64,000 bases of DNA, taken from the NCBI GenBank assembly GCA_018262795.1, contig JADFDM010000007.1:1-64000 (forward strand). Direction: 5' to 3'. Under the pieces are notes generated by a model. That model saw nothing but the letters and a program-made list of their open reading frames with translations. It was not told the origin of the DNA and made no database searches. A program made the position numbers and the translations under genes. The DNA is from Sphingobacteriales bacterium. Lineage in GTDB: Bacteria > Bacteroidota > Bacteroidia > Chitinophagales > LD1. Below, piece by piece: positions 44,267 to 51,900 of this stretch (position 1 is the first letter of the stretch; each line of letters starts with the position of its first letter).

Positions 44267-44641
44267 GTGAAAAAGCTCTTTGTAATAATGTTCAGTGTAG
44301 CTTTGGCCTTCAGCACTATTGAAAGTTGCACCGCTGCGCAGGGGGGTTCAACTTCTACGATTGGCAATGAGATTAAAAATTCGCTGATTACTTATCTGAT
44401 TCAATATCTGAGCAACAATACTTCCTTATCGGGAGTGATGAAAGGAGTTACTGCGACTACTCCGCTCACTTCTTTTTTAAAGACCAATACCAACATTGAT
44501 ACTTTCAAGAATCTGATTTCTTCGAAATTCCAAATCCCTGCTACTAAAGTCAGCAATGCTTACAGCAGTTTTGGCAACCTAACAGATGTCGCAAATTTTA
44601 TAAACAAGAACGGTAGCCTTTCCGGATTAGGCTTAAATTAA
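44267..44641 (+). CDS. Small secreted or lipoprotein of unknown function
   Basis: A 124-residue protein with a signal peptide and a possible lipobox ending at Cys21 (TIESC). The mature part is rich in Ser, Thr and Asn and lacks other cysteines. The start is GTG at 44267, the only one that keeps the signal peptide. It lies 21 bases after hppA and may be co-transcribed. I do not recognise a family. Confidence 0.6.
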   Translation: MKKLFVIMFSVALAFSTIESCTAAQGGSTSTIGNEIKNSLITYLIQYLSNNTSLSGVMKGVTATTPLTSFLKTNTNIDTFKNLISSKFQIPATKVSNAYSSFGNLTDVANFINKNGSLSGLGLN

Positions 44642-44857: not shown

Positions 44858-47188
44858 TTATTGCACCACCAATTTCTTGTGAACCTGTCGGCCATCAGTT
44901 TTTACAATCAGCGAATAGACCCCGGCACTCCAGCCTCTTAAAGAGATAAGTTCCTTTTGCTGCGTAGCTTCTTTGCGCAATAACAGTCTTCCTGTATTGT
45001 CAAAAATTTCAACGGTTGTTTGAGTTGGGCTATTGAAATGAATCTCCACAAAATCTTTCGCGGGATTGGGATAAATCACGATCTCCTGTTCCTCTATTTC
45101 CCGTAGCCCAACATACACAAATGTAAAGTTGGGCGAAAGAGAACTGCAGCCTGAAGCATTGCTACCAAGCACCGAGTAAACCCCCGATTGCTGTGGGGTA
45201 TAAACCGCTCCTGAAACTGCCGAAAGCAGTTGCCCATTATAAAACCATTCATAATCAGCACCTCCGCTTGCGGTTAAATCATTACCATTTTGCGACAGGC
45301 TTATCACAGGTGTATCCAACACCGCTACGTTCAACACAAGCAAGTTGCTGCTTCCGCATTCATTAAAAGCATTTACAGAAATAACTCCTGAAGAAGCGGC
45401 AATGACCAATACGGATGCTGCGGTATCGGTGCCTGAAAACATCCAGCCGACAGGAAGGTTCCAGTGAAAACTATCCGCTTGCGTTGAATCGCTAAGTGCA
45501 AAATTCAATGCGAGTGAATTATTGAGGCATACCGAATCTTCTCCAACAATAATTCCCGAAAGAACCGGAGGTGTATTCACCGTGACCAGCAGCGAAGTGG
45601 GAACGCTTTGCCCGCACTCGTTTTCGGCCTGCACGGTGAGGGTGCCGGTACTCGCTGCCAAAGCAGTAATGCTATCCGCATTCAAGGGGGTGCCCGACCA
45701 GCCTGCGGGTAAATTCCACACATAATTATTAGCTCCGCTCACCGGCTGAATAGCGTAGGAAACAGTCGTGCCTTCGCACACCGAAGTATCGCCCGCAATA
45801 AGCCCCGGGGTTCCAAGATTGGAGGGGATAACGGAAATGTTTTTCTGCACCGCTGGTGAAAGACCGCATAAGTTTTCAGCACTGACACTCACTGCGCCAC
45901 CGGCACCTCCCGAAGTAATGGTGACTTCATGAGTGCTATCTCCTTGCGTAATCGCCCAGCCCGATGGCAGCAGCCAGTTGTAATGAGCAACTGTGGTATC
46001 GTTCACCACTGACAAAGTAATGTTGGCAATGCCTGAACAAACTGTATCGGCACTTATAATAGCCGATGGAGCCACAGGAGGGAATGCTTCGCTCACATTA
46101 AGCGGAGGGGAAACGAGCGAGCACACTCCATTGCTCACCGTGAAGGAATAAGTGCCCACCTGTGACACCTGAATAGTGGAACTATTGCCCCCATTGCTCC
46201 ACACATAATTAAAGCCCGATGGCAAAGCCGTAAGAGTGGTGGCTGCTCCGTTGCAATAAGCACTATTGCCGCTTACTTGCGGAATAGCGGGTATCGAATT
46301 GCTGCAACTCTGCTGCAAGACATCTACGGCATCAGAAGCGTAGCGGCTTTCAAACAAAGTCCAAGCACTGCAATTTCCTTTCAAATAATAATCTAAGAAA
46401 GGAAGGAGGAAGAAAAGCGTTTTGTTGATTTGATCGGCACGAGCCAGCGGAGTGGCGGCACAACCCGAAAATCCTTCTCCGAAGTTGCACTGAAAGTTTC
46501 CGCTGCCGAACTGGCAATGAGTAGCATCGGTGATATTGATAAGTGTTTTACACACTGAATTAGAGGAATCATACATCGGCTGCTGATTGGTGGCAATGGG
46601 AGCAATGCAATCGCGGGTTCCGGCAAAACCCAAATAAGGTTTAGTCATGTTAGGTGCTGCCGTAATAGAAGAGGGGTTAGTAGTAGCAGCAGCAAAAGTG
46701 AAATAGCAAGTGGCGGGGTTTCCATACTGGCAGGAAAGCACCGTAGCACCTCCACCCATAGAGTGTCCACCCAAAGCGCCCTTCGCCACCACATGGAGAT
46801 AAAAAGGGGAGGTGCTGTTCGTATTGCTTTCCGCAATCAGTTTGTTATAAACAAAGATGAGATCCTGTGCAAAATCAGCATGACTGGGCGAGAGGCTTGT
46901 TTCGGTGGTGAGCAAGCCAACGATATATCCGCGCTTGGCCAGTGAATCGGCATAGGGATAATACGGAGTTTGATCCATTTGAAAGCCGTGGGCGAAAATG
47001 ACAAAAGGAAAAGAGTCGCTGGCCACTGTAGCATTAGTGCCCGGATAGTGAAACTCTATTCCCACCGCGCGATTGCTTCGTGCAGGGTCGGTATAGCTGA
47101 GGGTTTTAGTGCCTACGGTATAAGTTTGCGAATACAGCATGTTACCGGTAAGCAGCAGAGCAATGGAGGTTAAATACCTTCTCATCAT
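44858..47188 (-). CDS. Secreted alpha/beta hydrolase with Ig/PKD-like repeats and T9SS sorting domain
   Basis: A 776-residue exported enzyme. The start at 47188 (MMRRYLTSIALLLTGNM) is chosen because it opens a signal peptide cut near LYSQ. The catalytic domain (about 20-320) has the nucleophile Ser143 in GHSMGGG, a probable acid Asp193 in GTRDCIAP and His224 in DATHCQFG. These match the spacing and wording of cutinase and PETase-like polyesterases (GxSMGGG, DxIAP, SHxxF). Four or so Cys-containing Ig/PKD-like repeats follow, with recurring YVWNLPAGW-type segments. The end has the T9SS sorting motif IVIYPNPAKDFVEIHF and a terminal KKLVVQ. It should be secreted to the cell surface or medium. 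Confidence 0.85.
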   Translation of the reverse strand: MMRRYLTSIALLLTGNMLYSQTYTVGTKTLSYTDPARSNRAVGIEFHYPGTNATVASDSFPFVIFAHGFQMDQTPYYPYADSLAKRGYIVGLLTTETSLSPSHADFAQDLIFVYNKLIAESNTNSTSPFYLHVVAKGALGGHSMGGGATVLSCQYGNPATCYFTFAAATTNPSSITAAPNMTKPYLGFAGTRDCIAPIATNQQPMYDSSNSVCKTLINITDATHCQFGSGNFQCNFGEGFSGCAATPLARADQINKTLFFLLPFLDYYLKGNCSAWTLFESRYASDAVDVLQQSCSNSIPAIPQVSGNSAYCNGAATTLTALPSGFNYVWSNGGNSSTIQVSQVGTYSFTVSNGVCSLVSPPLNVSEAFPPVAPSAIISADTVCSGIANITLSVVNDTTVAHYNWLLPSGWAITQGDSTHEVTITSGGAGGAVSVSAENLCGLSPAVQKNISVIPSNLGTPGLIAGDTSVCEGTTVSYAIQPVSGANNYVWNLPAGWSGTPLNADSITALAASTGTLTVQAENECGQSVPTSLLVTVNTPPVLSGIIVGEDSVCLNNSLALNFALSDSTQADSFHWNLPVGWMFSGTDTAASVLVIAASSGVISVNAFNECGSSNLLVLNVAVLDTPVISLSQNGNDLTASGGADYEWFYNGQLLSAVSGAVYTPQQSGVYSVLGSNASGCSSLSPNFTFVYVGLREIEEQEIVIYPNPAKDFVEIHFNSPTQTTVEIFDNTGRLLLRKEATQQKELISLRGWSAGVYSLIVKTDGRQVHKKLVVQ

Positions 47189-49069: not shown

Positions 49070-50506
49070 TTGTTGCTCTGTTGTCGCTTTCGTGTTTGGC
49101 TGCTTATTCTGAGATTCACTTTTATCTCGTCCCTCTTTCTTATTCCCGCATTTGTGAGCGCCCAACTAAATCAGATTTACAAACCCACCGTCAGCCGCAT
49201 CTTATTTGTGCTCGATGGCTCCGGAAGTATGAAGCAGAAGTGGGGCGACAAAACCAAATTTGAAACGGCTAAAGAGTTGTTGTTTAAAATTATTGATTCG
49301 GTGGAACGCAAAAATCCAAGTGTAGAATTTGCGGTAAGAGTATTCGGCTATCAATATCCCAACGAGCAAAGGAATTGCCGCGACTCGCGCCTGCTGATTC
49401 CCTTTGCTAAGAACAACGGAACAAAAATAAACTCGATACTCGGAAGTATCCGCCCAAAAGGTATGTCACCGATAGCGTATTCCATTGAGCAGGGAGCAAA
49501 GGATTTTCCGGAGGATGTAAAAAGTCTCAATTCGCTGGTGCTGATTACCGATGGAGAGGAGAATTGCGCAGGAGATCCTTGCAAAGCTTCCAAAGAATTA
49601 GTGGCCAAGCGAATTTCGCTCAAGCCATTTATCATCGGGCTGAATGTAGATTCTGCCAGCTATCAAAAATTCAACTGCATTGGCACCTTTTACGATGCGA
49701 AGGACGAGCCTTCTTTATATAAAACGGTGGGCGTTATCATTCGTCAAACGCTGAATACTACCACTGCTCAAATCAATTTGTTAGATAGAAATAATGAACC
49801 TACGGTCACCAATCTTCCATTTACGCTCTACGATCATTACAGTGGAAAAATCGAATACAACTTTATCCATACTATGAATGAAAAGGGCAACCCCGACACC
49901 CTATACTTAGACCCGGTAGGGATTTATGATTTGGAACTACACACTTTTCCGCCCGTGCGAAAAGAGAGTATTGAATTGGTGCCGGGCAAGCATAACATTA
50001 TTGCACTCGATGTGCCGGCCGGTGATTTAATGGTGGAATGTTACGGAGCTTCGGTGGCTAACAATGATGCGCAAGTGTTGGTGAGGCCTGTAAAAAAGCC
50101 GGACAAAGCTGCGCTGACAGATGAAAGTATTCTGAACGTTCAAAATCTGAATGAGCCAGTGAAATACTTAGCCGATGATTATCACTTAGAGATACTCACC
50201 ACCCCCGAAACGCTGATTGATACCGGCATTCCGGCTTTTGGCGAAACCAATTTGCGCATTGCCCCTTATGGCACTTTAACGCTGTTGGCTTCGGCTGATT
50301 TATTAGTGAGTATTTATACCGATACGAAGGATGAACTGCAAATGGCCGATCGCTTTGAGATGACCGGGAAAACCGAAAACAGAAGGCTGCAACCGGGGTC
50401 GTATCGCTTGGTGTATAAGCCTAAGAATAATTATCATAGTGAGTCCACCCGCTCGCAGCAATTCAAAATAGAAGATGGGCGAGCGCTTGTTATTAATTTA
50501 CAATGA
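49070..50506 (+). CDS. Secreted von Willebrand A domain protein, tandem copy 1
   Basis: A 478-residue exported protein. The signal peptide (about 1-31) needs a TTG start at 49070; a CTG at 49055 is an alternative. The vWA domain starts at about 43 and has the metal-binding motif DGSGS (Asp49-Ser53) and later LITDGEE. Conserved cysteines in NCRDS, ENCAGDPC and FNCIG likely form disulfides. About 250 further residues form beta-sandwich-like domains. It overlaps the next gene by 4 bases (ATGA). The ligand is unknown. The pair is a tandem duplication. Confidence 0.85.
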   Translation: MLLCCRFRVWLLILRFTFISSLFLIPAFVSAQLNQIYKPTVSRILFVLDGSGSMKQKWGDKTKFETAKELLFKIIDSVERKNPSVEFAVRVFGYQYPNEQRNCRDSRLLIPFAKNNGTKINSILGSIRPKGMSPIAYSIEQGAKDFPEDVKSLNSLVLITDGEENCAGDPCKASKELVAKRISLKPFIIGLNVDSASYQKFNCIGTFYDAKDEPSLYKTVGVIIRQTLNTTTAQINLLDRNNEPTVTNLPFTLYDHYSGKIEYNFIHTMNEKGNPDTLYLDPVGIYDLELHTFPPVRKESIELVPGKHNIIALDVPAGDLMVECYGASVANNDAQVLVRPVKKPDKAALTDESILNVQNLNEPVKYLADDYHLEILTTPETLIDTGIPAFGETNLRIAPYGTLTLLASADLLVSIYTDTKDELQMADRFEMTGKTENRRLQPGSYRLVYKPKNNYHSESTRSQQFKIEDGRALVINLQ

Positions 50507-51900
50507 AGTTTAGGAAGCAGATACCGAACCATGAGCCGTGGGCGCTGAGAACGCTCCTGCTGCTGCTTGCTGTGTTCTATTCGCTGCTCACCTATTCGCA
50601 AGAGCGCACCCGCATTCTTTTTTTGGTGGATGCTTCGTTGAGTATGCGCAATCAGTGGCCGGGAGGCACCAAGTGGAACACCGCCATGAATTCGCTCAAC
50701 GATATTGCCGATAGCATTGCCACCATTCCGAATGTGGAGATGGGGATGCGCGTGTTTGGCCATCTGCACCCCGAGCCGGATAAAAACTGTTACGATTCAC
50801 GATTAGAAGTACCGATTGATTCAAACAATGCTGCGCGCATAAAAAAGAAGCTCAGTGAAATTCGCCCGAAGGGCATAACTCCCTTAGTATACTCTATTGA
50901 AAAAAGTGCCAGCGATTTCGGTAAAGTGCCGGCTAAAAATATATTAATAGTGATTACCGATGGCGAAGATGCCTGCGAAGGGGACCCCTGCGGTATTTCA
51001 CTGATGCTTCAGCGCAACAATATTATTCTCCGTCCTTTTATTATCGGGATGCAGTTGCAGCAGAAAAGTCTTGACAAAATGAACTGTGTAGGCAAGCTGT
51101 TCAATACCATTTCTGCCGATGATTTCTCCACCACGCTGAAAAAGGTGGTACTGGAATCTATTGCTAAAACCACCCTGCAAGTAAACTTGAACGATAAGGA
51201 TGGCAAGCCCACTGAAACAGATGTGAACATGACCTTTTACGATTCAGAAACCGGCATTGCCAAATACAATCTCTATCATACTTTGAACAGTCGCGGCCTA
51301 CCCGATACTCTTACTATCTCGCCCATGTTTCGTTACAAATTACAGGTGCATACCGTACCTCCTATTATGCTGGATAATATTGAACTGCGCGAAAATCACC
51401 ACAACATCATCAACCTGAATGCCCCGCAGGGCTACCTTCGCTTCACTTTGCAGGGGATGATTTCGAAATCGAATATTATCAGCCGCATCAAATGTCTGGT
51501 GCATCTTCCCGGCAGCGTGCAAACTATTTATGTGCAGAAACTAAATACTACCGAAAAATATCTGACCGGCAAGTATGATTTGGAGGTGCTTACTCTTCCG
51601 AGAATGATGATTAGAAGTGTGCAGATAGATCAAAGTAAAACTACCGATGTGCAAATTCCCGCTCCGGGCATTCTCACCATCAACAAAAACTTTGAAGCTT
51701 ACGGAGCTATATTGATGGCTGAAAAAGGGCGAATGAAAAAGATATATGATCTCAAAACGAAGGATCGCCAAGAGACTGTGGCACTGCAACCCGGCAAATA
51801 CATGCTGGTGTATCGCTCGAAATATGCCAAAACTATCCACACCACCGTTGAAAAAGAATTTGAAGTTACTTCGGGCGGAACTGTAAGTTTGACACTTTAA
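50503..51900 (+). CDS. Secreted von Willebrand A domain protein, tandem copy 2
   Basis: A 465-residue paralog of the preceding protein with the same layout: signal peptide or anchor (about 16-32), vWA domain from about 36, and C-terminal beta-rich domains. The metal-site motif is DASLS (Asp43-Ser47), which keeps the DxSxS ligands. ITDGEDACEGDPC and MNCVG keep the cysteine pattern. Long blocks align with copy 1 (for example IRPKGITPLVYSIE against IRPKGMSPIAYSIE), but overall divergence is high, so the duplication is old. The ATGA overlap suggests both are made in equal amounts, perhaps as a hetero-complex. Confidence 0.85.
   Translation: MKFRKQIPNHEPWALRTLLLLLAVFYSLLTYSQERTRILFLVDASLSMRNQWPGGTKWNTAMNSLNDIADSIATIPNVEMGMRVFGHLHPEPDKNCYDSRLEVPIDSNNAARIKKKLSEIRPKGITPLVYSIEKSASDFGKVPAKNILIVITDGEDACEGDPCGISLMLQRNNIILRPFIIGMQLQQKSLDKMNCVGKLFNTISADDFSTTLKKVVLESIAKTTLQVNLNDKDGKPTETDVNMTFYDSETGIAKYNLYHTLNSRGLPDTLTISPMFRYKLQVHTVPPIMLDNIELRENHHNIINLNAPQGYLRFTLQGMISKSNIISRIKCLVHLPGSVQTIYVQKLNTTEKYLTGKYDLEVLTLPRMMIRSVQIDQSKTTDVQIPAPGILTINKNFEAYGAILMAEKGRMKKIYDLKTKDRQETVALQPGKYMLVYRSKYAKTIHTTVEKEFEVTSGGTVSLTL

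Follow-up and report, generated by a model that had tools for sequence, protein, structure and literature searches.

A putative T9SS-exported esterase of the PETase-like family with a Phe-Met-Ala pocket motif in a Sphingobacteriales bacterium

Introduction

Does a gene that joins a PETase-like catalytic domain to a T9SS tail encode a degrader of solid polyesters, or a more common kind of surface esterase? The question is raised by a gene for a 776-residue protein (P0001) in the stretch of DNA analyzed here (the window), which comprises the first 64,000 nucleotides of contig JADFDM010000007.1 of a Sphingobacteriales bacterium (GCA_018262795.1). The initial annotation read the product as an exported hydrolase with a polyesterase-like active site, suited to attacking solid polymers outside the cell. 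Judged from its sequence, P0001 would be a serine carboxylesterase that is exported by the T9SS and belongs, within the PETase-like family PF12740, to a Bacteroidota subfamily whose pocket motif is Phe-Met-Ala; a probability of about 0.75 is assigned to this enzyme class and mode of export. The alternatives considered below are mostly readings of the substrate within the esterase class. Since the tryptophan that grips PET is absent and relatives are common in the order, P0001 is probably a rather common type of surface esterase and not a rare degrader of plastics.

Gene and domain organization

The open reading frame occupies positions 44858–47188 on the minus strand of the window, with its ATG at 47188 and a stop codon ending at 44858, and encodes 776 amino acids. 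The product begins with a putative Sec-type signal peptide (residues ~1–20, 47129–47188), which looks typical by eye, with the start MMRR, a hydrophobic stretch and an end at S-Q. The catalytic domain (residues 21–300, 46289–47128) is supported by PDB matches and by the Pfam model PF12740 (PETase) over residues 45–232; this model scored 45.7 bits in the full protein (7e-12) and 48.6 bits on the catalytic domain alone, against a cut-off of 28. The following Ig/PKD-like arm (residues ~300–697, 45098–46291), defined from Pfam, an AF2 model and Foldseek, comprises three PKD_6 modules (three stretches, 1.8e-46), one confident Ig-like module (~630–692) and a low-confidence stretch (~300–365); Ig_7 remained below its cut-off (24.6 vs 27.3 bits). 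A T9SS type A sorting domain closes the protein (residues 705–776, 44861–45076), matched by Por_Secre_tail (PF18962, residues 705–775, 9.4e-14) and by NCBIfam TIGR04183 (7.6e-15). The reading frame, the Ig/PKD-like repeats and the T9SS tail of the initial annotation were thus all borne out.

Parts of the corresponding export machinery were found in the same genome (3.48 Mb, 19 contigs, 98% complete), with PorU (1307 bits) and SprA_N (526 bits) both over their cut-offs. At least 146 Por-tail matches were detected, 139 of them over the cut-off, this count being a lower bound obtained from 150 scored candidates of 214.

Family of the catalytic domain

The best PDB sequence matches of the single protein were entries named PET hydrolase (1.1e-12; best 60 of 96 distinct sequences at E ≤ 1). 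A profile built from 31 catalytic regions (the window protein and 30 relatives, with the partial sequence L034 left out) also had PET hydrolases on top (1.2e-26; best 60 of 199 at E ≤ 0.001). When these regions were scanned alone, 31/31, including that of the window, matched PF12740 at E ≤ 0.001; the scan of whole proteins was weaker, with 23 of the 28 complete proteins matching at the same threshold, window included. The identity between the IsPETase-like core and the window protein was 31%. Both the PF12740 match and the single-sequence PDB matches stop near residue 232, which leaves the ~65 C-terminal residues of the domain almost or entirely without a template. The AF2 model of the catalytic domain, made from six sequences of which five are alike, was unusable (mean pLDDT 45.3), and in the full-length model (mean pLDDT 61.3) the catalytic core was low, with residues ~370–690 and the tail forming mostly confident beta modules. 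The fold and the triad therefore rest on sequence homology. A search of viral_contigs for further relatives returned 54 pattern matches and 0 relatives.

These comparisons bear directly on the strongest alternative, namely a lipase or small-ester esterase that, having no preference for polymers, would act on triglycerides, wax or phospholipid-like esters. It is consistent with the weaker matches of the same 31 regions to Chlorophyllase (24/31), Hydrolase_4 (23/31) and PAF-acetylhydrolase (18/31), and with the occurrence of 1jfr, deposited as a lipase, among the PDB matches listed for the single protein. However, PF12740 was the top-scoring model for the window protein, and over the 31 regions it matched more members than any other model and reached the lowest E-value; export on a stalk would suggest large or insoluble substrates. 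This alternative is thus a real contender, with somewhat less than even chances.

Active site and substrate pocket

The family alignment consisted of the window protein, 31 relatives and the IsPETase-like core; L003, L004 and L008 were dropped as copies, and L005 was represented by L012. In this alignment, the putative nucleophile S143 (46760–46762, minus strand, as are all codons given here) lies within GHSMGGG (residues 141–147), the catalytic acid D193 (46610–46612) opens DCIAP (193–197), and the catalytic base H224 (46517–46519) sits in the loop HCQFGSGNFQC. All three align with the triad of IsPETase and are invariant in 32/32 sequences, so that the earlier reading of these motifs as the triad regions of a cutinase/PETase-type enzyme holds at the level of sequence. 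Conserved cysteines directly follow the acid (C194) and the base (C225), and C234 lies in the same loop as the latter; the invariant positions (32/32) include C194, C225, C234, H67, G68, F69, A168, T170 and P172, among others. The oxyanion-hole positions are as in PET hydrolases: F69 (46982–46984; 32/32) corresponds to Tyr87 of IsPETase, which serves in the oxyanion hole and in substrate contact, and M144 (46757–46759; 31/32) stands next to the nucleophile.

The site of the tryptophan of PET hydrolases (W185 of IsPETase) gave a different result. It was placed opposite P172 in the 32-sequence alignment and opposite A168 (46685–46687) in a larger one; the latter was preferred because of the larger alignment and because an ungapped count from the nucleophile gives Ser+25 in both proteins. 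Placement at P172 was set aside on these grounds, and neither residue is aromatic. Trp or Tyr is thus absent from the site, the Ala168 column being invariant (32/32). Since residues 166–179 of P0001 contain no aromatic residue, the aromatic residue of PET hydrolases is lacking wherever W185 falls within them, and the pocket motif was accordingly read as Phe-Met-Ala. Of the polyesterase-like site proposed in the initial annotation, the family, the triad and the Phe/Met oxyanion positions stood, and the PETase-type substrate site did not.

In IsPETase (6EQE; compared through the chain of 7OSB), the triad, the methionine after the serine and, in 7OSB, GHSMGGG are shared with P0001. At the same time, Trp185 is replaced by Ala168 and Tyr87 by Phe69, the cysteines near the acid and the base are located elsewhere, and IsPETase has neither a T9SS tail nor an arm. 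The 7OSB chain is presumably an IsPETase variant. Substitution of this tryptophan in IsPETase is reported to be costly: W156A (equivalent to W185A) retained 13.33% of MHET and 2.77% of TPA production (PMC5727383), and W185A was tabulated at 5% activity on BHET (PMC10098701). Note that mutation of the pocket of PET30 towards the IsPETase motif is described as abolishing activity rather than raising it (PMC8767016), which suggests that single pocket residues do not decide activity alone.

The closest published counterparts are Bacteroidota enzymes with sorting domains. PET27 (Aequorivita) and PET30 (Kaistella; PDB 7PZJ) combine, as P0001 does, a PETase-like domain with a T9SS sorting domain; they differ from it in their published description by a length of ~365 aa, by the lack of a listed Ig/PKD arm and by activity on PET (PMC8767016). 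Their pocket motifs are given in the same source as Phe-Met-Trp and Phe-Met-Tyr, respectively, and that of PET38 as Phe-Met-Ala. PET38 (Fluviicola taffensis, WP_083800582.1) likewise comes from Bacteroidota and has a T9SS tail and a D-H-S triad, but it is 447 aa long with a shorter C-terminal part, and is described as poorly expressed and inactive on the substrates tested, with Impranil not determined (PMC8767016); it is also filed under inactive homologs in PMC9772341. Its inactivity is weak evidence because of the poor expression. We infer from the motif, rather than from the full sequence, that PET38 and P0001 belong to one subfamily; no active characterized member of a Phe-Met-Ala subfamily was found in the literature searched.

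The pocket and these counterparts bear most on a second alternative, that of a true polyesterase on solid polyesters, in which a PETase-like cleft would bind the polymer and the PKD/Ig stalk would give reach. It draws on PET hydrolases as the nearest solved structures by sequence and on the T9SS-tailed enzymes of PMC8767016, among which PET27 and PET30 are reported to hydrolyze both PET and PCL, and PET28 and PET29 to hydrolyze PCL but not PET foil. It is opposed by the alanine at the Trp185 column, by the low-expressed, inactive PET38 with the same motif, and by E96, H103 and D109, which are invariant (32/32) where the IsPETase row has the neutral residues Asn, Ser and Gln. A search of the genome for the tannase/MHETase family gave no match either, but its control was silent as well, so that this is not evidence. 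On balance, this alternative is doubtful, with odds below those of the lipase or small-ester reading. Slow action on PET is also reported for further Bacteroidota hydrolases whose structures differ from those of the T9SS-dependent esterases (PMC13188925), which counsels caution in ruling PET activity in or out by motif.

The disulfide reported to link the acid and base loops of IsPETase (PMC5727383) has no positional equivalent in P0001: the DS1 positions of IsPETase (D-3 and H+2) are not cysteines here, and C194 (D+1) and C225 (H+1) are found instead. Among 41 sequences, counted without the two reference sequences, C194, C213, C225 and C234 were all present in 33 and all absent in six, with C213 alone missing in one and C194 alone missing in one. 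The constant co-occurrence of C225 and C234 may point to their pairing within the His loop, although it is too weak to settle the matter. In L039–L042 (search group f55), which form a separate branch, the four cysteines are absent and the His loops read G[GA]NHTKF followed by DW(T/S)D.

The arm in P0001 and its relatives

Foldseek with the full-length model gave chains of GhpA, the grappling-hook protein of Aureispira, as the nearest structures (9flp, 1.7e-21), followed by many eukaryotic Ig/FN3 proteins. Since these hits lead and only the arm and tail of the model are usable, this result speaks for the arm only: the array of modules in GhpA (9FLP and others) resembles the arm of P0001, and the likeness excludes the catalytic domain. 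GhpA is a very large protein with an adhesion-type role. The likeness to GhpA might suggest that P0001 is an adhesin or a structural protein of the cell surface in which the hydrolase domain is a relict; this is nevertheless most improbable in view of the triad, invariant in 32/32 sequences, and of the relatives too short to hold the arm.

The lengths of the 28 complete proteins, window included, fell into 11 of 380–396 aa and 17 of 553–952 aa, and the 11 short ones have room only for a catalytic domain and a tail. This also weighs against a polyesterase that depends on a stalk for reach. The Por tail was present in 27 of the 28, PKD_6 in 11, Ig_7 in seven and SprB repeats in four. On a quick 43-row tree, the long/short state requires six changes when 40 rows are counted (omitting L034 and the two references), or five if seven more distant rows are dropped too, and the starred branches force at least three; the cut of 540 aa was set after the lengths had been seen, several lengths run from stop to stop, and the tree is limited by its long branches and the quick method used. 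Given the short proteins, the patchy PKD_6, Ig_7 and SprB matches and the repeated changes of state, the arm is best seen as an optional spacer rather than a defining part.

Distribution among Bacteroidota

A search with a 295-residue region found relatives at E ≤ 0.001 in 63 of 149 related genomes, own genome included, corresponding to 48 of 109 high-quality genomes and 29 of 77 genera. Three of these 63 genomes had best E-values of only 8e-8 to 2.5e-4, and the proteins matched there could be other hydrolases. Across 395 genomes of the phylum, PF12740 had matches at E ≤ 0.001 in 205, with 79 over the cut-off. Among 23 of these matches that were read, nine (L038–L045 and L047) carry the signature GHSMGGG...A-x-T-x-P, and the others are apparently other alpha/beta hydrolases or divergent (L046). 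The initial annotation had held that T9SS-tailed polyesterases of Bacteroidota are known but few. Rarity was rejected only near the own genome, where 63/149 related genomes have a relative; over the phylum the subfamily is sparser, with its signature in nine of the 23 matches read.

With the IsPETase-like core as query, matches at E ≤ 1e-4 came from 26 of the 395 genomes of the phylum, own genome included. Ala stands at the 168 column in each of the nine best places (L036/L045, L038–L044 and the window locus) and again in the eleventh (L047); the tenth place is taken by a different hydrolase (L051). No Trp-type PETase was seen among the core matches read, which comprised the best eleven and a few others of the 26.

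Probable function

P0001 would be exported by Sec and then pass through the T9SS, whereupon PorU would remove the tail and the protein, probably surface-anchored, would be attached to the cell surface, with the stalk keeping the catalytic domain away from that surface. The chemistry is likely to be ordinary ester hydrolysis, in which S143, activated by H224/D193, would form an acyl-enzyme from which water releases the product. The most likely substrates are, tentatively, extracellular aliphatic or lipid-like esters or soft biopolyesters, and not PET-type aromatic polyesters, which are disfavored by the alanine that stands in place of the aromatic clamp. P0001 may act on soft or aliphatic polyesters; it is unlikely to act well on PET.

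A bolder and rather improbable proposal is that the Phe-Met-Ala group forms a distinct Bacteroidota polyesterase clade, which would bind its substrate without the PETase Trp, by means of E96, H103 and D109 beside the cleft; the D+1 and H+1 cysteines would brace the catalytic loops, having arisen apart from DS1, and the target would be an as yet unnamed natural extracellular polyester or lipid polymer.

The results suggest that plastic degradation should not be read from a PETase-family match and a T9SS tail alone: the key aromatic residue is missing from the form found in relatives of this genome. A natural substrate, if found, would indicate the role of the PETase-like family outside plastics, and would help metagenome screens to tell genuine PET hydrolases apart from similar-looking proteins.

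Genomic neighborhood

Nothing seen in the genomic context points to a polyester pathway. The neighboring genes with other functions include those for a FAD-dependent protein, an H+-pyrophosphatase, MgtC, DUF6498, two vWA proteins and a transketolase-like protein, among others. The nine flanking genes had 0 counterparts at E ≤ 1e-5 in the available DNA around five related loci, two of which lie on contigs of only 5.8 and 3.2 kb. An operon-based assignment of function was set aside, the neighbors being functionally diverse and the flanks without counterparts at related loci. PF12740 has one match over the cut-off in this genome and one weak match below it, the latter on the same contig (19.3 bits, G000:C17:191554-191826, L002).

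Three further observations concern the surroundings of these genes. The H+-pyrophosphatase gene and the esterase gene are separated by an ORF of 124 aa (44267–44641, plus strand) that had no Pfam match at E ≤ 0.001 and whose start, judged by eye, resembles a signal peptide. Two tandem genes for vWA-domain proteins (49070–51900, plus strand; 478 and 465 aa, with a 4-base overlap), apparently paralogous by eye, lie beside the transketolase-like gene. Finally, in one related genome the esterase gene (L003:8568-12581) adjoins ORFs that we take, from their reading, to encode the T9SS proteins PorV and PorU.
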